Made by a program: the position numbers and the translations under genes | NCBI RefSeq assembly: GCF_021531375.1 | Contig: NZ_JADYTU010000002.1 | Location: forward strand, 1-64,000 | Source: Pseudoflavonifractor phocaeensis | GTDB lineage: Bacteria; Bacillota; Clostridia; Oscillospirales; Oscillospiraceae | Direction: 5' to 3' | Length of the DNA stretch: 64,000 bases | In this document: one piece after another, positions 48,624 to 56,809 of the stretch | How the letters are laid out: every line of letters starts with the position of its first letter | Numbering within the stretch: the first letter of the stretch is position 1 | Notes under the pieces: generated by a model | Databases searched by the model: none | Told to the model about the DNA's origin: nothing | What the model saw: only the letters and a program-made list of their open reading frames with translations

Positions 48624-48910
48624 AACAACTGAAGAGCAGTTGAAACCTATGAGGAAGAGTAGTAGCCGACGCGGCAAACCTTCAGAGAGCCCTGGATGGT
48701 GGGATCAGGGTGGGGAGCGGTCAGGCGAATGGACTTCCGAGGGCGGCTTGAACGGCTTTGCCAAGTAGATGCCGACGGGGACCCACCCGTTATCCATCGG
48801 GCACGCGTGATGGCGCGTGAAGCGAGCGGACGTTTTTAACGTCAATTTGGGTGGTATCGCAGGAGTGCAGCTCTTGTCCCATGTGGGATAAGGGGCTGTT
48901 TTTTTATACT
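48624..48910 (+). promoter_or_regulatory. T-box riboswitch, tryptophan specifier
   Basis: The T-box sequence TGGGTGGTATCGC lies at 48849-48861. Stem I is bounded by GGAAG (about 48652) and CTTCC (48734-48738), with an AGTAGTAG loop-E strand and a distal AGAGAGCCCTGG...GGTGGG region. The specifier loop reads GAATGGA, placing TGG (Trp) at 48730-48732. The terminator CAGCTCTTGTCCCA / TGGGATAAGGGGCTG followed by seven Ts (about 48868-48907) competes with the antiterminator. Uncharged tRNA-Trp should switch on the ABC transporter below. Confidence 0.9.
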
Positions 48911-48997
48911 CCGAAAGCCAGGCCGCCGGCACCGGCCCCTCCATCACCCACCCAAACAAAACTGGGCCCAATGAGGCCGAATATGGAGGTAAACACC

Positions 48998-50107
48998 ATG
49001 AAAAACACCAACATCGTCAAGAAGATCCTGAGCGCCGCCCTGTCCCTGTCCCTGGTCCTGTCCCTGGCCGCCTGCGGCGGCAGCGGCTCCGGCACCTCTT
49101 CCGCCGGCGGCTCCGCCTCCTCCCAGCCCCAGGATGCTTCCAGCTCCAGCAGCGAAGCGGTCAAGGAGTACAAGGTGGGTATCGTCAAGTTTATGGACCA
49201 TGCCTCTCTGGATCAGATCGAAAAGAACATCCAGAAAGAGCTGGACGCCAAGAGCGCCGAGCTGGGTGTGAATTTCAACTATAAGGACTACACCGCCAAC
49301 GGCCAGGGCGACCGCACCACCCTGAACCAGATCGCCGCCCAGATGGTAGCCGACGGCGTGGACGTGGTGGTTCCCATTGCCACCCCGGCCGCCCAGGCCA
49401 TGCAGTCCGTGGTGGTTGAGGAAGGGATCCCCGTCATCTTCGCCGCTGTCTCCGACCCCGTCACCGCCAAGCTGGTAGACGATATGGACGCCCCCGGCGG
49501 CCTCATCACCGGCGTCAGCGACGCGCTGAACACCCCCATGATCATGGACATGATGGTGGCCGTGGACCCCGACATCCAGAAGGTTGGCCTGCTGTACTCC
49601 AAGTCCGAGGACTCCTCCAAGAAGCCCATTGAAGAGGCCAAGGCCTATCTGGACGAGCACAATATCGCCTATGTGGAAAAGACCGGCACCAACACCGATG
49701 AGATCAACTCCGCCGTGGACTCCCTGATTGCTGAAGGCGTGGAGGCCATCTTCACCCCCACTGACAACACCGTGATGAGCGCCGAGCTGTCCATTTTTGA
49801 GAAGCTCAACGACGCCAAGATCCCCCACTACACCGGCGCCAACTCCTTCGCTCTGAACGGCGCCTTCTTCGGCTACGGCGTGGATTACGACGATCTGGGC
49901 GCTGAGACCGCCGACATGGTGGTGAACCTGCTGGTCAACGGCGCCGATCCCGCCACCACTCCCGTGGTCATCCTGGCCCACCAGGCCGCCACCATCAACA
50001 CCGAGACCTGTGAGGCCATCGGACTGAGCCTGGACGACGTGAAGGCGGCCTTCGCTACCCTGGGTATCGGCGTGGTGGAGATCACCACCGCCAAGAGCTT
50101 CAGCTGA
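48998..50107 (+). CDS. trpX: ABC transporter substrate-binding lipoprotein, TrpX type
   Basis: This 369-residue protein has a lipoprotein signal with LAAC box at about residue 23 and a Ser/Gly-rich linker. The binding domain of the PF04392 (ABC_sub_bind) type has YKVGIVKFMDHASLDQIEKN, ADGVDVVVPIATPAAQAM, GLLYSKSEDSSKKPIEEAKA and GYGVDYDDLGAETADMVVNL. With the next two genes and the Trp T-box it corresponds to TrpXYZ, a tryptophan importer of Firmicutes. ATG 48998 follows GGAGG; upstream frame is leader RNA. Confidence 0.88.
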   Translation: MKNTNIVKKILSAALSLSLVLSLAACGGSGSGTSSAGGSASSQPQDASSSSSEAVKEYKVGIVKFMDHASLDQIEKNIQKELDAKSAELGVNFNYKDYTANGQGDRTTLNQIAAQMVADGVDVVVPIATPAAQAMQSVVVEEGIPVIFAAVSDPVTAKLVDDMDAPGGLITGVSDALNTPMIMDMMVAVDPDIQKVGLLYSKSEDSSKKPIEEAKAYLDEHNIAYVEKTGTNTDEINSAVDSLIAEGVEAIFTPTDNTVMSAELSIFEKLNDAKIPHYTGANSFALNGAFFGYGVDYDDLGAETADMVVNLLVNGADPATTPVVILAHQAATINTETCEAIGLSLDDVKAAFATLGIGVVEITTAKSFS

Positions 50108-50177
50108 ATCGGAACATGATGGGTCTGGGGCGCCGCGTACCGCGACACCCCGCCCTTGCGCGTAAGGAGGAACTCCC

Positions 50178-51110
50178 ATGCTGCTATCCATTACGACCAT
50201 ACAGACCGCTTTGGCGGTGGGTGCCATCTACTCTCTCGTGGCGCTGGCGCTGTTCATCAGCTTCTCCATCCTGAACATCGCCGACCTGTCCACAGACGGC
50301 TGTTACACCCTGGGCTTTGCGGTGGGCGCTACCGTCACCCTGGCCGGCCATCCTTTCCTGGCCCTCCCCGCCGCCATGGCCGCGGGGGCCTGTTCGGGGT
50401 TTGTCACCGCCTTTCTCCAGACCAAGCTGGGGGTGGAGAGCATTTTGGCCGGAATCATCGTCAATACCGGCCTGTACACCGTAAACTTGGCCGTGATGGG
50501 CTGGTCCTCCAACTTGTCCATCTATGGCAGCGACAGCCTCTTTTCCCTGGCCAAGGGGTTGAGTGACGCGGAGTGGTGGAGAAATTGGTATAAGGTCATC
50601 GTTCCCGCGGCCATCCTGCTGCTGATCTGCCTGTTCGTCGCCTTTTTCTTCCGCACCCGCCTGGGTCTGTCCATCCGGGCCACCGGCGACAATGCCGACA
50701 TGATCCGGGCCTCCTCGATCAATCCGGCGTTTACCATCACCGTGGGCCTGTGTCTGGCCAACTCTCTCACTGCTCTGGCCGGCTGCCTGTACGGCCTGCT
50801 GAATACGGGCTGTGACATCAATCTGGGTACCGGCATGGTGACGGTGGCCCTGGCCAGTCTGGTCATCGGGGAGAGCCTGATGGGCAGGGGCTCTATCCCC
50901 AAGCGGATCTTCGGCGTGGTGCTGGGGGCCTGCCTCTACCGCCTGATTATGGCGGTGGCTATTGGAGCCAATATCCCCACGGAATGCTTCAAACTGGTGT
51001 CCGCCCTGATCGTGGCGGTGGCCATTGCCACACCCCAGGGGCGGAAGCTGATCGCCCTCCAGCGCCAGAAGATGGCCGCCCGCAGAAAAGGAGGAACCCA
51101 GCAATGCTGA
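50178..51110 (+). CDS. trpY: ABC transporter permease, TrpY type
   Basis: This 310-residue permease of the branched-chain/LivH-like fold has about eight helices. It contains FSILNIADLSTDGCYTLGFA, the typical substrate-channel start of this family, and ANSLTALAGCLYGLLNTGCD near the middle. AAGGAGG precedes the ATG. Its last codons overlap the start of the ATPase gene by seven bases. It forms the membrane channel of the T-box-controlled importer. Confidence 0.88.
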   Translation: MLLSITTIQTALAVGAIYSLVALALFISFSILNIADLSTDGCYTLGFAVGATVTLAGHPFLALPAAMAAGACSGFVTAFLQTKLGVESILAGIIVNTGLYTVNLAVMGWSSNLSIYGSDSLFSLAKGLSDAEWWRNWYKVIVPAAILLLICLFVAFFFRTRLGLSIRATGDNADMIRASSINPAFTITVGLCLANSLTALAGCLYGLLNTGCDINLGTGMVTVALASLVIGESLMGRGSIPKRIFGVVLGACLYRLIMAVAIGANIPTECFKLVSALIVAVAIATPQGRKLIALQRQKMAARRKGGTQQC

Positions 51111-51907
51111 AGCTGAACGATATTTCCAAGACCTTTAATTCCGGCACCATCAACGAAAAGCGGGCCCTGGACCATGTATCCCTCCATTTGGCGCCGGGAG
51201 ATTTCGTCACCATCGTGGGCTCCAACGGGGCGGGCAAGTCCACTCTGTTCAATGCCATCGCCGGAGGCTTCTACGTGGACGAGGGCTCGGTGGTGCTGGC
51301 GGGGGAGGATATCACATTCAAGCCGGAGTACCGGCGCAGCCGGGAGATGGGCCGGCTGTTCCAGGACCCCATGCGGGGCACCGCGCCCCATATGACCATT
51401 GAGGAGAATCTGGCTCTGGCCTATCTGCGTACCGCCAAGAAGCAGAACGCCTTTTTCAGCCGCACCTCCAAGGCGGAGCGGCGGTTTTTTCAGGATCAGC
51501 TGGCTCTGCTGGACATGGGACTGGAGGACCGGATGAAGCAGCCGGTGGGTCTGCTCTCCGGCGGTCAGCGGCAGGCGCTGACGCTGCTGATGGCCACCAT
51601 GGTGCCGCCCAAGGTGCTGCTGCTGGATGAGCATACCGCCGCTCTGGACCCGGGCACGGCGGAAAAGGTGCTGAATATCACCAAGGACGTGGTGGCCCGA
51701 AACAAGATCACCACCCTGATGGTGACCCACAACATGAACCAGGCCCTGGAACTGGGCAACCGCACCCTGATGATGGACGGAGGCCGCATCGTGCTGGACG
51801 TCAGCGGGGAGGAGCGGGCCGGCATGACGGTAGGCGGCCTGTTGGAGCGGTTCCGTGCCGGAGCGGGCAAGGACCTGGACAACGACCGGATCCTGCTGTC
51901 GGAATGA
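51104..51907 (+). CDS. trpZ: ABC transporter ATP-binding protein, TrpZ type
   Basis: This 267-residue ATPase has Walker A GSNGAGKSTL, the Q loop in GRLFQDPMRG, signature LLSGGQRQALTL, Walker B VLLLDEHTAAL and the switch His in MVTHNM. ATG 51104 has AAAGGAGG upstream and overlaps trpY. It powers the TrpXYZ importer. A G+C-rich hairpin without a T run (51919-51947) follows. Confidence 0.92.
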   Translation: MLKLNDISKTFNSGTINEKRALDHVSLHLAPGDFVTIVGSNGAGKSTLFNAIAGGFYVDEGSVVLAGEDITFKPEYRRSREMGRLFQDPMRGTAPHMTIEENLALAYLRTAKKQNAFFSRTSKAERRFFQDQLALLDMGLEDRMKQPVGLLSGGQRQALTLLMATMVPPKVLLLDEHTAALDPGTAEKVLNITKDVVARNKITTLMVTHNMNQALELGNRTLMMDGGRIVLDVSGEERAGMTVGGLLERFRAGAGKDLDNDRILLSE

Positions 51908-52149: not shown

Positions 52150-53157
52150 ATGACAAAGATCGCACTGGGGAATACCGGGATCACCGTGGAGAAAAACGGC
52201 TTTGGCTGTCTGCCCATCCAGCGTATTTCCCGCACCGAGGCCGCCTATCTGCTGCGGAAAGCGGTGGACGGAGGCATCAACTACTTTGATACCGCCCGGG
52301 CCTACAGCGACAGTGAGGAGAAGGTGGGCTATGCCTTCGCAGGCATCCGGGACAAGGTGGTCATCGCCACCAAGAGCCACGCCCGGACCGGCGCAGAGAT
52401 GCGGGAGCACCTGGAGGCCAGCCTGCGGGCTTTGAACACCGATTACATCGACGTGTACCAGTTCCATAATCCCTCCTTCTGCCCCAGACCCGGCGGAGAG
52501 GACGGACTGTACGACGCGGCGCTGGAGGCCCGGGCCCAGGGAAAGATCCGCTGCATCGCCATTACCAACCACCGCCTGGCGGTGGCGCAGGAAGCCATTG
52601 ATTCCGGACTGTATGCATTACTCCAGTTCCCCTTCAGCTATCTGTCTGGAGTCCAGGAGGAGATGCTGCTGGACGACTGCGTCAAGGCCGGAATGGGCTT
52701 TGTGGCCATGAAGGGGCTGGCGGGAGGCCTGATCCGGAACGGTCTGGCCGCCGCGGCGTTTATGGCCGGGCAGCCCCATGTGGTGCCCATCTGGGGCGTT
52801 CAGCATGAGTGGGAGCTGGACCAGTTCCTGAGCGCTGTCCGGGAGCCGCCCGCCATGACGGAGGAGTACCGGGAGATCATCCGCCGGGACCGGAAGGAAC
52901 TGGCTGGGGAGTTCTGCCGTGGCTGCGGCTACTGTATGCCGTGCCCCGCCGGCATTGAGATCAACAACTGTGCCCGCATGTCGCTGATGCTGCGCCGGGC
53001 TCCCGCCCAGGCCTGGCTTACGCCGGAGTGGCAGACCAAGATGGAGAAGATCAAGGACTGCCGCCACTGCGGCAGCTGCAAGTCCAAATGCCCCTACGGG
53101 CTGGATACCCCCCGTCTGCTGGAGGAGAATTATCGGGACTACCAGACCTTCCTGTAA
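52150..53157 (+). CDS. Aldo/keto reductase with two C-terminal 4Fe-4S motifs
   Basis: This 335-residue protein has an aldo/keto reductase barrel with the catalytic tetrad visible: Asp in YFDTARAYSD, Tyr seven residues later, Lys in VIATKSH and His in VYQFHNP. A ferredoxin-like tail has CRGCGYCMPCPAGI (about residues 257-268) and CRHCGSCKSKCPYG (about 303-313). Such enzymes are common in anaerobes and probably reduce an unknown carbonyl with electrons passed through the clusters. A TTGACA lies at 52088-52093 with an A+T-rich -10 near 52113. GAGGAGGG precedes the ATG. Confidence 0.9.
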   Translation: MTKIALGNTGITVEKNGFGCLPIQRISRTEAAYLLRKAVDGGINYFDTARAYSDSEEKVGYAFAGIRDKVVIATKSHARTGAEMREHLEASLRALNTDYIDVYQFHNPSFCPRPGGEDGLYDAALEARAQGKIRCIAITNHRLAVAQEAIDSGLYALLQFPFSYLSGVQEEMLLDDCVKAGMGFVAMKGLAGGLIRNGLAAAAFMAGQPHVVPIWGVQHEWELDQFLSAVREPPAMTEEYREIIRRDRKELAGEFCRGCGYCMPCPAGIEINNCARMSLMLRRAPAQAWLTPEWQTKMEKIKDCRHCGSCKSKCPYGLDTPRLLEENYRDYQTFL

Positions 53158-53187: not shown

Positions 53188-53216
53188 TTGACAAGGAGAA
53201 AAATTTTTTCTACAAT
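53188..53216 (+). promoter_or_regulatory. Promoter of the cobalamin-riboswitch leader
   Basis: TTGACA (53188-53193) and TACAAT (53211-53216), 17-bp spacer. Confidence 0.8.
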
Positions 53217-53235
53217 TTCCCTTGTACAATCTAAT

Positions 53236-53450
53236 ACCTCTTTTGAGTGCCTTTCCGGGCGTCCGGCCCGGGGAGGAGAATAGGAAACCGGGTGAGAAGC
53301 CCGGACGGTACCGCCGCTGTCAGCGCGTGATGCCGCGCTCGTGGCGAAAGCCGGCCATTGGGGAGACCTGAGAAGGCAGAGCGCGGCCGGGAGGGGAAGA
53401 GAATGCTCCCAGCGCGCCAAGTCAGAAGACCTGCTCAAAGGAGACTGTAC
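53236..53450 (+). promoter_or_regulatory. Cobalamin (B12) riboswitch
   Basis: Conserved elements appear in order: GAGTGCCTTTCCGGG, GAATAGGAAACCGGG, TGAGAAGCCCGGACGGTACC, CCGCCGCTGT, AAAGCCGGCCATTGGGGA and the B12 box GCCAAGTCAGAAGACCTGC (53416-53434). The aptamer is followed by an intrinsic terminator (53499-53540), so corrinoid binding should stop transcription of the 53612 gene. Confidence 0.93.
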
Positions 53451-53498
53451 CCGAGCCCCCGGGATAGGGGCGGAACGGTACGACCAAATGGAACGCGG

Positions 53499-53540
53499 AA
53501 AAAGGCCGCGGCAGTTGTCATGGACTGCCGCGGCCTTTTT
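53499..53540 (+). terminator. Riboswitch-controlled terminator
   Basis: AAAAAGGCCGCGGCAG pairs exactly with CTGCCGCGGCCTTTTT around TTGTCATGGA, about 65 bases after the B12 box. Confidence 0.88.
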
Positions 53541-53611
53541 GCTTTCGCCCTTCCTGGCGGTTGGCCGGAGTAGATTGGCGGCGGAGCCGCCGGGAAAGGA
53601 AGATGTGTTTT

Positions 53612-56600
53612 ATGAGGAAAAAAAGTACGCGGGCGCTCAGCCTGTTGCTGGCGCTGGTCATGGTGCTTGGCCTGCTGCCGGGGACGGTCTGGGCGTCGAA
53701 GACGGGGATCACCGTGTCCCTGTCCATTTTTGACCAGGGTATTCCGGGGACCTGTGAGGACGGAGCCTTGATGCTGCAGCGTCCGGTCACGGTGGAGGAC
53801 CGGAATGAAGATGGAAATTACAGCCTGGATGAGGCGCTGGCTGCGGCACATGCCGCCTATTACCCGGACGGCGAGGACGGCTATGGGCTGGACGGCGCCG
53901 ATGGCTTTGTCACCAAGCTTTGGGGCGAGGAGACCTCGGCCACCGGCTTCTACCGCAATGACGCCGTCACCGCCGCAGTGGGAGAGGAATATCTGGCGGA
54001 AGGAGACCGGATCACGGCCTTTGTGTACAGCGATCAGGAGCTGTATACCGACCGGTATTCCTATTTCACCCGGAACAGTCAGACGGTCTGCGTGGATGAG
54101 GAGTTTGAACTGAAGCTGATGGGAAGCGGATATGACGAGAATTGGCTGCTGACGGAGGAGCCGGTGGCCACCGCGCCCATCGGGGTGTATGCCAAGGATG
54201 GGACCTTTGCGGTCTCGGAAGAGATCCGCGGAGAGCGTTTGTTTGAGGAGACTTACGCCCAGGCGGCTACCGGGGCGGACGGAACGGCAAAGCTGTCCAT
54301 TGTGACTCCGGGCACCTACACGCTGACGGCCCAGTTTGACTCAAGCAACTATATTACCTATGACTCGTCTGGCCAGGCCCGTCCGAACCGTCTGGTGCCG
54401 CCGGTCTGTGTGGTCACTGTCCTGTCCGACGAGGACTACGCGGCCTATCAAGATCAGCTGGTGCTGGAACAGGCCAAAGAACTGCTGACCTGGGACAGCA
54501 TCAAGGGCGCCAACACAGACAGCCGGGCGGTGACAGAGAACCTCTCCATCCCCAGTGAACTGACGGTGGACGAAAAGCAGGTGGAGGTCTCCTGGTCCTG
54601 CGACGACACCACCGGCGCGCTGAGCGTGTCCAACTACTACGGCTCCTGGGCGGCCTATGTGGACCGGCCCGCCGCCGAGGACGTGTCCTGCACCCTGACC
54701 GCTGTCCTGGCCTATGGGGACGAGACGGCGGAAAAGGAATTCCACCTCACCATCAAGGCAGAGGGTGTGGACGAGAACAAGCAGTCCGTCGTGACCTACG
54801 GCGACCTTCTGACTGGTATCGCCGCCGGTTATGCCACCTCCGCGGACCCCTGGGTGGTGCTGGAGATGGCTGCGTACAACGGCAGCAATGTGAAGGACGA
54901 AGGGGGTTATGGGGACGCTTCCGCAGTGGCGGCAGCTCTGGCCGATGCCGCCATTGGCAGCGCTGTGGAGACAGCGGATCTGGACGCGGTGGATATCAGC
55001 GGGCCATACGCCATCTACACCATTCCCTACCTCTCCCTGGCTTATCAGGCCGCCGGATGTGCCCAGGAGGATCCGGAGCGGATGGCCGCCATGAAAGCCT
55101 CCATGGTGGAGTATCTGAACGGCCTGGAGAGCAATTATGCCGAGGTGGATGACATGGCCCCGATTCTGGCCGCCCTGGCCCCCTATTATCACGAGGGGGA
55201 CCGGGAGGTAACGGCCGCGGTGGACGGGGCTGTTGCGTGGCTGTCCGGCCAGCAGGGTCAGGACGGCACCTTCGCCAACTACGGCACCAGCAACGCCAAT
55301 TCTACGGCCCTGGCCGTGGTAGCCCTGTCTGCCCTGGGTATTGACGCCCACACCGACGGCAGGTTCATCAAGAACGATAGAAGCGCCATGGACGGTCTGT
55401 TTTCCTTCGCTCTGGCCGACCACACCGGATTTGGTTATAAGGGCAACGTACTCAAAAACGCTCTGGCCACCGAGCAGGGCTTCCGGGCCCTGGTGTCTTA
55501 CGCCCGGTTCAGGGAGAGCGGTGCGCCCTATAACATCTATCTCCAGGCCAAGGACAGCAGGTCCGCTGTGACCGCTCCCGATATCAGCGCCACCGCCAAG
55601 CCCCCGGAGGGCGGCTCCTCTCCCTCCAAGGTCCGGGTCACCGTTTCCGTGATGGTCCCCCCGGAGGGCGGTGAGGAAGGACAGTACACCTACCGCTATG
55701 ACTCCGGCGAATATACAAACCTGTTGGGTGAAGTCAAGAGCGTCAGTGTCTCCTCTGGCTCCACCGCGCTGGAAGTTCTGACCGGTGTGCTGGATGATGC
55801 CGGCCTCTCCTACACGGAGCATAACGGCTATATCAGCGGGATCGACTATTTGGCCGAGGGGGACCACGGCCCCAATTCCGGCTGGCAGTATATGGTGGAC
55901 GGGACCGCACCCACCGAGTCCGCTTCCACCTATACCTTTAACAGCAACGCAAAAATGGTCTGGTACTATACCGACGACTATACGAAGGAGAAAAGCGCCG
56001 CCTCCTGGAACGGAGGGAATACCTCCGACATTTCGGTCCAGGTGGAAAAGAACGGGGACGGCACCTACTCCGTCACCCTGCCCGGGGACAGCGAGGGCCC
56101 CGTCCTGGTGACCATTCCGGATGTGGGTGACGGCCAGCTGGTAGTCATCGTGGGAACGGACGGTACCGAGCAGGTGGTGAGGAAATCCCTGGTAGAGAAC
56201 GGCACGGCCCGGTTCTTCCTGGTAGAGAATGCCGTGGTCAAGGTGACGGACTATGCCAGCGGGTTTAGTGACGTGGCACAAGATGACTGGTATGCCTCCG
56301 CTGTGGACTTTGTGTCCGGCCGGGGGCTGTTCTCCGGCGTCGCCGGAGATAAGTTCGCACCCGGCCTGACTTTGGACCGGGGAATGGTGGCCACGGTGCT
56401 GTACGCCCTGGAGCAGCCGGGAGAGCAGAGCGGAGCGCTCCAGTTCTCTGACGTGGACGGGAACCACTGGTGCGCCTGGGGCGTGGCCTGGGCCAGCGGA
56501 ACTGGGATCGTCGCCGGATATGGAGACGGCCGATTCGGGCCTCAGGACCCCGTGACCCGGGAGCAGCTGGCGCTGATGCTGTATCAATACGCCCAGATGC

Positions 56601-56809
56601 TGGGGATGGATACCCAGGGGCGGGGCGCTCTGAGCCGCTTTACAGACGGCGGACAGGTGGCGCCCTGGGCCGGGGATGCTGTGGCTTGGGCGCTGGACGC
56701 CGGGCTCCTGAGCGGACGGCCCGACGGGAAGCTGGACCCGGCCGGCACCGCCACCCGGGCCGAGGCGGCCGTCATGCTCCGGCAGTTTGTGGCCCGGATG
56801 CTGGGATGA
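53612..56809 (+). CDS. SLH-anchored surface protein with terpenoid-cyclase-like and DUF4430 domains (predicted corrinoid binder)
   Basis: This 1065-residue exported protein has a signal peptide (1-28) and an N-terminal region with an EF-hand-like loop (DRNEDGNYSLDE, about 65-76). An atrophied bacterial Ig-like domain follows (about 284-388). An alpha/alpha-barrel-type repeat domain (about 390-645; AVAWLSGQQGQDGTFANYGT) resembles terpenoid cyclases. Next come a DUF4430 domain (about 673-795; GDHGPNSGWQYMVDG) and three SLH modules (about 886-1065). The barrel plus DUF4430 order is that of intrinsic factor/transcobalamin, whose beta domain is related to DUF4430. A B12 riboswitch upstream supports a role in capturing corrinoids at the cell wall. 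Start ATG 53612 is set by AAAGGAAG. Confidence 0.85.
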   Translation: MRKKSTRALSLLLALVMVLGLLPGTVWASKTGITVSLSIFDQGIPGTCEDGALMLQRPVTVEDRNEDGNYSLDEALAAAHAAYYPDGEDGYGLDGADGFVTKLWGEETSATGFYRNDAVTAAVGEEYLAEGDRITAFVYSDQELYTDRYSYFTRNSQTVCVDEEFELKLMGSGYDENWLLTEEPVATAPIGVYAKDGTFAVSEEIRGERLFEETYAQAATGADGTAKLSIVTPGTYTLTAQFDSSNYITYDSSGQARPNRLVPPVCVVTVLSDEDYAAYQDQLVLEQAKELLTWDSIKGANTDSRAVTENLSIPSELTVDEKQVEVSWSCDDTTGALSVSNYYGSWAAYVDRPAAEDVSCTLTAVLAYGDETAEKEFHLTIKAEGVDENKQSVVTYGDLLTGIAAGYATSADPWVVLEMAAYNGSNVKDEGGYGDASAVAAALADAAIGSAVETADLDAVDISGPYAIYTIPYLSLAYQAAGCAQEDPERMAAMKASMVEYLNGLESNYAEVDDMAPILAALAPYYHEGDREVTAAVDGAVAWLSGQQGQDGTFANYGTSNANSTALAVVALSALGIDAHTDGRFIKNDRSAMDGLFSFALADHTGFGYKGNVLKNALATEQGFRALVSYARFRESGAPYNIYLQAKDSRSAVTAPDISATAKPPEGGSSPSKVRVTVSVMVPPEGGEEGQYTYRYDSGEYTNLLGEVKSVSVSSGSTALEVLTGVLDDAGLSYTEHNGYISGIDYLAEGDHGPNSGWQYMVDGTAPTESASTYTFNSNAKMVWYYTDDYTKEKSAASWNGGNTSDISVQVEKNGDGTYSVTLPGDSEGPVLVTIPDVGDGQLVVIVGTDGTEQVVRKSLVENGTARFFLVENAVVKVTDYASGFSDVAQDDWYASAVDFVSGRGLFSGVAGDKFAPGLTLDRGMVATVLYALEQPGEQSGALQFSDVDGNHWCAWGVAWASGTGIVAGYGDGRFGPQDPVTREQLALMLYQYAQMLGMDTQGRGALSRFTDGGQVAPWAGDAVAWALDAGLLSGRPDGKLDPAGTATRAEAAVMLRQFVARMLG

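Follow-up and report, generated by a model that had tools for sequence, protein, structure and literature searches.

The gene at positions 53612..56809 of a 64,000-nucleotide stretch of Pseudoflavonifractor phocaeensis DNA (positions 1 to 64,000 of contig NZ_JADYTU010000002.1; the whole stretch is hereafter the window) probably encodes a receptor for corrinoids, the vitamin B12 family, that is bound to the cell wall and made only under B12 shortage. It lies behind a cobalamin riboswitch, and its product, as predicted from the sequence, is a secreted, wall-linked protein in which an alpha/alpha-toroid is followed by a beta-grasp domain of the family DUF4430. Because genes of this kind adjoin those of a B12-type importer in relatives, this protein is most likely the surface B12 catcher of the cell. 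The scavenging idea is not new, since it was predicted for the toroid and beta-grasp pair in 2007 (Burroughs et al., 2007; PMC1796856). New here are the riboswitch control, the anchoring by SLH modules, the linkage to a CbrT-type importer, the occurrence of the domain pair both fused and as separate proteins, and a companion domain that we call N1.

A riboswitch-led gene for a predicted wall-anchored protein

The promoter, the leader, and the gene with its domains are laid out as follows.

53188..53216, + strand: sigma-70-type promoter TTGACA-17-TACAAT, 11/12 consensus bases
53228..53452, + strand: cobalamin riboswitch aptamer RF00174, full model 1-189, 84.3 bits, E 2.5e-19
53499..53540, + strand: terminator-like hairpin in the aptamer-gene interval, 18 bp including an A/T tract
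53612..56809, + strand: open reading frame of the gene for the SLH-anchored toroid-DUF4430 protein, 1065 amino acids
53612..53695, + strand: signal peptide, residues 1-28, read from the sequence
53696..54181, + strand: N1 domain, residues 29-190, of no Pfam family, with stand-alone or anchored relatives in toroid/DUF4430 clusters
53798..53833, + strand: EF-hand-like loop DRNEDGNYSLDE, residues 63-74, within N1
54509..54760, + strand: aBig_2 (atrophied bacterial Ig domain), residues 300-383, Pfam E 3.5e-7
54797..55681, + strand: alpha/alpha-toroid, residues ~396-690, from family profiles; presumed counterpart of the alpha-domain of B12 carriers
55757..55972, + strand: DUF4430 (PF14478), residues 716-787, Pfam 48.5 bits versus a cut-off of 23.8, E 1.2e-12
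56261..56785, + strand: three SLH modules (predicted wall anchor), residues 884-1058, Pfam E 1.7e-34

The initial annotation had read this region as a complete B12 riboswitch with a terminator, followed by a single gene of this domain order and by no transporter in the same transcript, and all three observations hold. The aptamer scores above the RF00174 gathering cut-off of 31.5 bits and is the only match to that model in the whole genome (2,281,241 bases). The hairpin lies 3′ of the aptamer, the segment spanning it (53490-53545) folds at -36.8 kcal/mol, and it is presumed to be the off switch when cobalamin binds. It is absent from the output of a consensus terminator scan, presumably because its T run sits inside the stem and does not form a tail. 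Pfam and the family profiles together recover the domain order; the profiles were used for the toroid because the Pfam match in the window protein alone (SQHop_cyclase_C, residues 507-564, E 2e-4) is sub-threshold, and with them its assignment is firm. An ATG at 53603 is a possible alternative start. The gene stands alone: the upstream neighbor, a Fer4-containing aldo/keto reductase encoded on the + strand, ends at 53157, 5′ of the promoter, the next long frame downstream lies on the opposite strand, and the transcript contains no transporter gene.

Recurrence of the riboswitch linkage

The linkage between cobalamin riboswitches and these domains recurs in genomes of several families. The toroid-DUF4430 unit was matched in 42 of 149 genomes, that of the window among them. 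Cobalamin riboswitches above the cut-off occur in 28 of the 41 other genomes with a match, which were picked for their domains and not for riboswitch position. Of the 60 riboswitches in these 28, 38, spread over 25 genomes, have a toroid or DUF4430 domain less than 8 kb downstream on the same strand; random placement would link about 0.36 of the 60. As the genomes are related, the 60 cannot be read as independent trials. At the level of fetched loci, an above-cut-off cobalamin riboswitch is found in 26 of 40, comprising 25 RF00174 matches and the AdoCbl-II riboswitch of locus L057 (38.7 bits versus a cut-off of 36.5). The latter was the sole new cobalamin-type match when fourteen loci were rescanned at the thresholds of Rfam itself, a rescan that also refound the riboswitch of L039. 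A second collection yielded 45 loci, of which 43 were scanned (L118 and L119 were left out), and in 19 of these a cobalamin riboswitch precedes the matched part on its strand, at a distance of 36 to 5484 bases; L093, with its riboswitch downstream, is not counted among them. Two Paenibacillus loci, L094 of P. gorillae and L095 of P. glycanilyticus, have their toroid/DUF4430 genes behind a cobalamin riboswitch. Four of the scanned loci (L075, L078, L080, and L082) also belong to the first set of contigs, and a riboswitch is present in three of the four, which leaves 16 of 39 others. These four come from same-genus genomes, Oscillospiraceae/Clostridium metagenome-assembled genomes whose origins include chicken, goat cecum, and water-deer cecum.

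Behind such riboswitches, DUF4430 occurs in short frames of 141-276 codons, 209-362 bases 3′ of the riboswitch, in genomes G007, G022, G033, G034, G056, G057, and G095 (the match in G095 being below the Pfam cut-off), and in very large DUF4430/SLH proteins at L043 (4102-12414, 2770 amino acids) and L051 (9834-17306, 2490 amino acids).

A linked CbrT-type importer

The initial annotation had suggested looking in relatives for the same gene beside genes of an energy-coupling factor (ECF) or other corrinoid transporter. Of the 40 fetched loci, 23 do encode EcfT, EcfA, and an S-component, the last often fused to both ATPases. The toroid and DUF4430 appear at relatives' loci either within one fused SLH protein, the arrangement of the window gene, or as two proteins just 5′ of EcfT (for example, L036, L038, and L044). 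A profile of ten S-components matched 6FNP, the deposited entry of the vitamin B12 transporter ECF-CbrT (PMC5997447), at E 1.8e-18, compared with 4.7e-4 for a riboflavin S-component, 0.0099 for the membrane chain 4hzu_S, and 2.1 for an unrelated chain. Across the genome set, a CbrT-like S-component at E<=1e-20 accompanies a toroid/DUF4430 match in 37 of 42 genomes versus 7 of 107 without one, the genomes again not being independent.

The genome of the window contains a comparable set on the same contig. About 70 kb from the window gene lies a second DUF4430 gene (C22:124670-124903), coding for a protein of 275 residues whose sequence shows a membrane segment at the N-terminus, and after it come, in order, EcfT (CbiQ), a fusion of two EcfA with the S-component, FecCD, and an ABC (ATP-binding cassette) ATPase; the CbiO/CbiQ-like genes of this genome are outside the window, beside the second DUF4430 gene. 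A Peripla_BP_2 protein is encoded farther along, on the other strand. The sole solved chain matched at E<=1 by the S-component (C22:121046-121624) is 6fnp_A, E 8.9e-8, and with its EcfT, its two EcfA, and an S-component homologous to CbrT the set is predicted to be of the CbrT type. In the same neighborhood (L004, 716-10450), a TP_methylase-HemD fusion, a siroheme-type NAD_binding_7 gene, and the FecCD and ABC genes adjoin the DUF4430-EcfT-EcfAAS genes, which places two importers near tetrapyrrole genes.

A probable consumer of corrinoid is encoded as well. A methionine synthase on C11 has S-methyl_trans, Pterin_bind, and two B12-binding domains; a second PF02310 match in the genome is below the cut-off and falls on a frame resembling IMP dehydrogenase. 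CbiD, of the de novo pathway, was not found in this genome, listed as 99.95% complete, and together with the methionine synthase this fits a cell obliged to import corrinoid.

Kinship with the animal B12 carriers

The initial annotation had related DUF4430 to the small beta domain of the animal B12 carriers, and profile searches substantiate that relationship. When all solved chains were searched with a profile built from 32 DUF4430 domains of the window and related loci, 10 sequences were returned at E<=10, with transcobalamin-2 ranked first. Six of the 10 are transcobalamin-2 (E 6.1e-8, 1e-6 three times, 0.0029, and 0.008), two are intrinsic factor (both at E 1.2), and two are solute-binding proteins (E 0.13 and 1.3). 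The matched region is the C-terminal beta-domain of transcobalamin-2 (327-405 of 409), the same domain reached by the fused-unit profile A1 at E 0.012; profile A3, searched against the solved chains, did not return transcobalamin-2. At the level of sequence profiles, then, DUF4430 is homologous to the transcobalamin beta-domain.

The toroid is placed, by sequence, in the terpenoid-cyclase superfamily and at that level only. The best match of a 35-member toroid profile is squalene-hopene cyclase (E 3.6e-22), other toroids being matched too, and Pfam Prenyltrans is found in 30 of the 35 members at E<=0.1. The beta half is thus homologous to that of the carriers, the alpha half belongs to the same superfamily, and the order, alpha-toroid and then beta-grasp, is the same. 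Of the intrinsic-factor-like architecture that had been proposed for the window protein, the domain order and the kinship of the beta part stand; the kinship of the toroid with the carrier alpha-domain is seen at superfamily level only. At relatives' loci L046, L067, and L068 there are also toroid-DUF4430-toroid proteins, in which two toroids surround one beta-domain.

The N1 domain

N1 is likely a companion of the toroid/DUF4430 system, not an exclusive one. Its relatives occur as stand-alone proteins directly 5′ of a toroid gene (L054, L055, L057, L058, and L066), and inside SLH proteins that also bear DUF4430 (L045, L050, L053, L070, L077, and L079); some have anchors, namely SLH in L065 and L069, LysM in L066, and, below threshold, an LPXTG-type anchor in L054. 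Of 16 aligned members, 11 have a sequence that fits the EF-hand-like loop. Thirteen strong matches (E<1e-46) were found, one each in 13 of the 149 genomes and all on contigs with toroid/DUF4430 genes, of which only that in G074 is independent evidence because the other 12 genomes supplied rows of the N1 query alignment. Another 20 matches are weaker (E 2e-13 to 5e-6) and come from G065, G070, G074, and G069; 19 of them, all except that of G069, lie off contigs with a listed DUF4430, and N1 was accordingly rejected as an exclusive B12 marker. G065 was outside the DUF4430 search and gave no match in the search for the toroid-DUF4430 unit. Some of the weaker relatives in G065, G070, and G074 occur two or three per frame. 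Whether N1 might be a second DUF4430/beta-grasp domain was examined by profile comparison, which gave weak alignments, one of 68 columns with a probability of 10.4% and one of 34 columns with 11.6% (p ~0.003), against 0-0.3% for four unrelated profiles.

Proposed function and alternatives

We propose that when intracellular cobalamin is low, RNA polymerase would pass the leader, and the protein would be exported and held on the wall by its three SLH modules, as its domains suggest. Homology and domain order suggest that the toroid and DUF4430 could grip a single corrinoid lying between the two, in the manner of transcobalamin and intrinsic factor. The corrinoid may then be handed to the CbrT-type ECF importer encoded with the membrane-anchored DUF4430 protein ~70 kb away, and would supply the methionine synthase of this cell without CbiD; the genes for both of these steps are present, and the hand-overs are our conjecture. 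Plentiful cobalamin would cause the riboswitch to end transcription. A more specific scheme, which we regard as possible rather than probable, is a two-step Gram-positive B12 relay from an intrinsic-factor-like receptor on the wall to a membrane toroid/DUF4430 pair on the CbrT-type ECF importer, with N1 as a possible calcium-dependent part. Because the toroid of the wall protein is the sole one found in the genome of the window, it may act in trans as the missing partner of the membrane DUF4430 protein. Such a relay, if true, would mean that dedicated binding proteins outside the cell serve an ECF transporter.

Several findings weigh against a corrinoid receptor. Within the genome of the window, no recognizable riboswitch was found upstream of the ECF/DUF4430 genes, and no toroid gene lies beside them; the search for the toroid-DUF4430 unit matched this genome twice, in the window gene and in the DUF4430 domain of the 275-residue protein. 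Among the relatives, no toroid/DUF4430 domain lies within 8 kb of 22 of the 60 riboswitches; 12 of the 40 fetched loci have no cobalamin riboswitch and 2 have a sub-threshold one only; L077, whose N1-aBig_2-toroid-DUF4430-SLH order is that of the window protein, shows no riboswitch in its 13.2 kb; and five genomes with a toroid/DUF4430 match have no CbrT-like S-component at E<=1e-20. Finally, the toroid profile matched no alpha-domain of a B12 carrier (transcobalamin or intrinsic factor) among the solved chains at E<=10, and Pfam Cobalamin_bind appears in 1 of its 35 members only (E 0.03). The B12-controlled, wall-bound scavenger of the initial annotation is well supported by its context (the riboswitch linkage, the CbrT-like ECF linkage, the methionine synthase, and the failure to find CbiD); its likeness to intrinsic factor is supported in part, by a beta part related in sequence to that of transcobalamin and a toroid assigned to its superfamily only.

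Three other explanations were weighed. The first, which we consider unlikely, is a B12-repressed surface protein for another ligand (a cobalt complex, a heme-like tetrapyrrole, or a glycan) or for the precursor cobinamide, as part of a broader scavenging under B12 shortage. The beta-grasp relatives have been proposed to bind diverse soluble ligands (PMC1796856), and the FecCD and ABC genes adjoining the ECF genes of this genome are of a kind that can carry other substrates; against this, the beta-domain is nearest to those of the B12 carriers, and the linked S-component resembles CbrT, whose transporter carries cobalamin and cobinamide and meets no competition from hemin (PMC5997447).

The second, to which we give a low probability, has the protein store or shield B12 on the wall, or withhold it from competitors, instead of feeding an importer. 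The lack of co-transcription with the importer in this genome and the placement of the SLH protein at a separate riboswitch in some relatives (L035/L036 and L037/L038) would suit such a role, but elsewhere the SLH protein and the importer genes share one cluster (L039, L040, L050, and L053), and the presumed repression by B12 suits uptake more than storage. SLH modules are frequent on structural surface proteins, and DxDD is the motif of terpenoid cyclases. The third explanation, a merely structural or adhesive S-layer protein or a terpenoid-cyclase-like enzyme with a riboswitch gained by chance, can draw on the SLH modules and on the squalene-hopene cyclases that head the toroid matches, yet is very improbable: the riboswitch linkage recurs across families, and the enzyme is thought unlikely because DxDD is at the aligned place in 0 of 35 toroid members (the window protein has EVDD there, and two members have DxDD elsewhere) and because the protein has a signal peptide.

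A corrinoid receptor on the wall is the preferred reading. Surface B12 capture by Gram-positive gut bacteria is little studied. With its links to riboswitches and to CbrT, the domain prediction of 2007 becomes a system that can be tested, whose candidate parts are a wall receptor, a membrane pair, an importer, and N1. The system bears on whether gut Firmicutes can compete with host intrinsic factor for B12, and on the proposal of 2007 that the B12 carriers of animals were acquired from such bacteria (PMC1796856).

Separately from these genes, the window has at 48640-51907 a T-box leader followed by genes for three proteins: ABC_sub_bind, a BPD_transp_2 permease, and an ATPase of the ABC type. 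They probably form an operon for amino-acid uptake that is controlled by tRNA.

Comparison with known systems

In a literature search judged by titles and the openings of abstracts, no experimental work on a bacterial protein of the DUF4430/toroid kind was recognized, subscription journals and preprints being mostly outside its coverage; one proteomics paper on Lacticaseibacillus has a single mention of DUF4430 (PMC9963975). The B12-binding proteins BtuG and BtuH of Bacteroides have a fold that we take to differ from that of the window protein. BtuG, whose role in capture at the surface is comparable, is a surface-exposed B12 binder from transport loci regulated by B12 riboswitches; it is a lipoprotein that interacts with BtuB, and its report describes no btuG homologue detected outside Bacteroidetes (PMC6143338). 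BtuH likewise binds B12 directly (PMC8941943).

In transcobalamin, intrinsic factor, and haptocorrin, as in the window protein, an alpha/alpha-toroid precedes a beta-grasp domain in one chain. Unlike these animal carriers, the window protein is bacterial, predicted to be anchored to the wall by SLH modules, and furnished with added N1 and Ig-like domains, and sequence does not tie its toroid to the carrier alpha-domain in particular.

The closest precedent is the work of Burroughs et al. (2007; PMC1796856), which defined the beta-grasp superfamily SLBB, found it fused to an alpha/alpha toroid in surface proteins of bacteria, and described operons with CbiO- and CbiQ-like genes in bacteria that usually lack key B12 synthesis genes; from these it predicted B12 scavenging by the Gram-positive proteins and a transfer to animals. 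The window protein shares with those proteins the toroid-SLBB fusion, the signal peptide, and the predicted attachment to the wall and scavenging of B12. CbiO/CbiQ-like genes lie at relatives' loci and beside the second DUF4430 gene of this genome, not in the window. The terms S-layer, riboswitch, and ABC transporter do not occur in the main text of that paper.

The S-components of the relatives and of this genome are homologous to that of ECF-CbrT from Lactobacillus delbrueckii (PDB 6FNP), where cbrT sits in the arrangement nrdJ-cbrS-cbrT-pduO (PMC5997447). Unlike that transporter, the systems of the relatives often fuse the S-component to two ATPases and link it to extracellular toroid/DUF4430 proteins.

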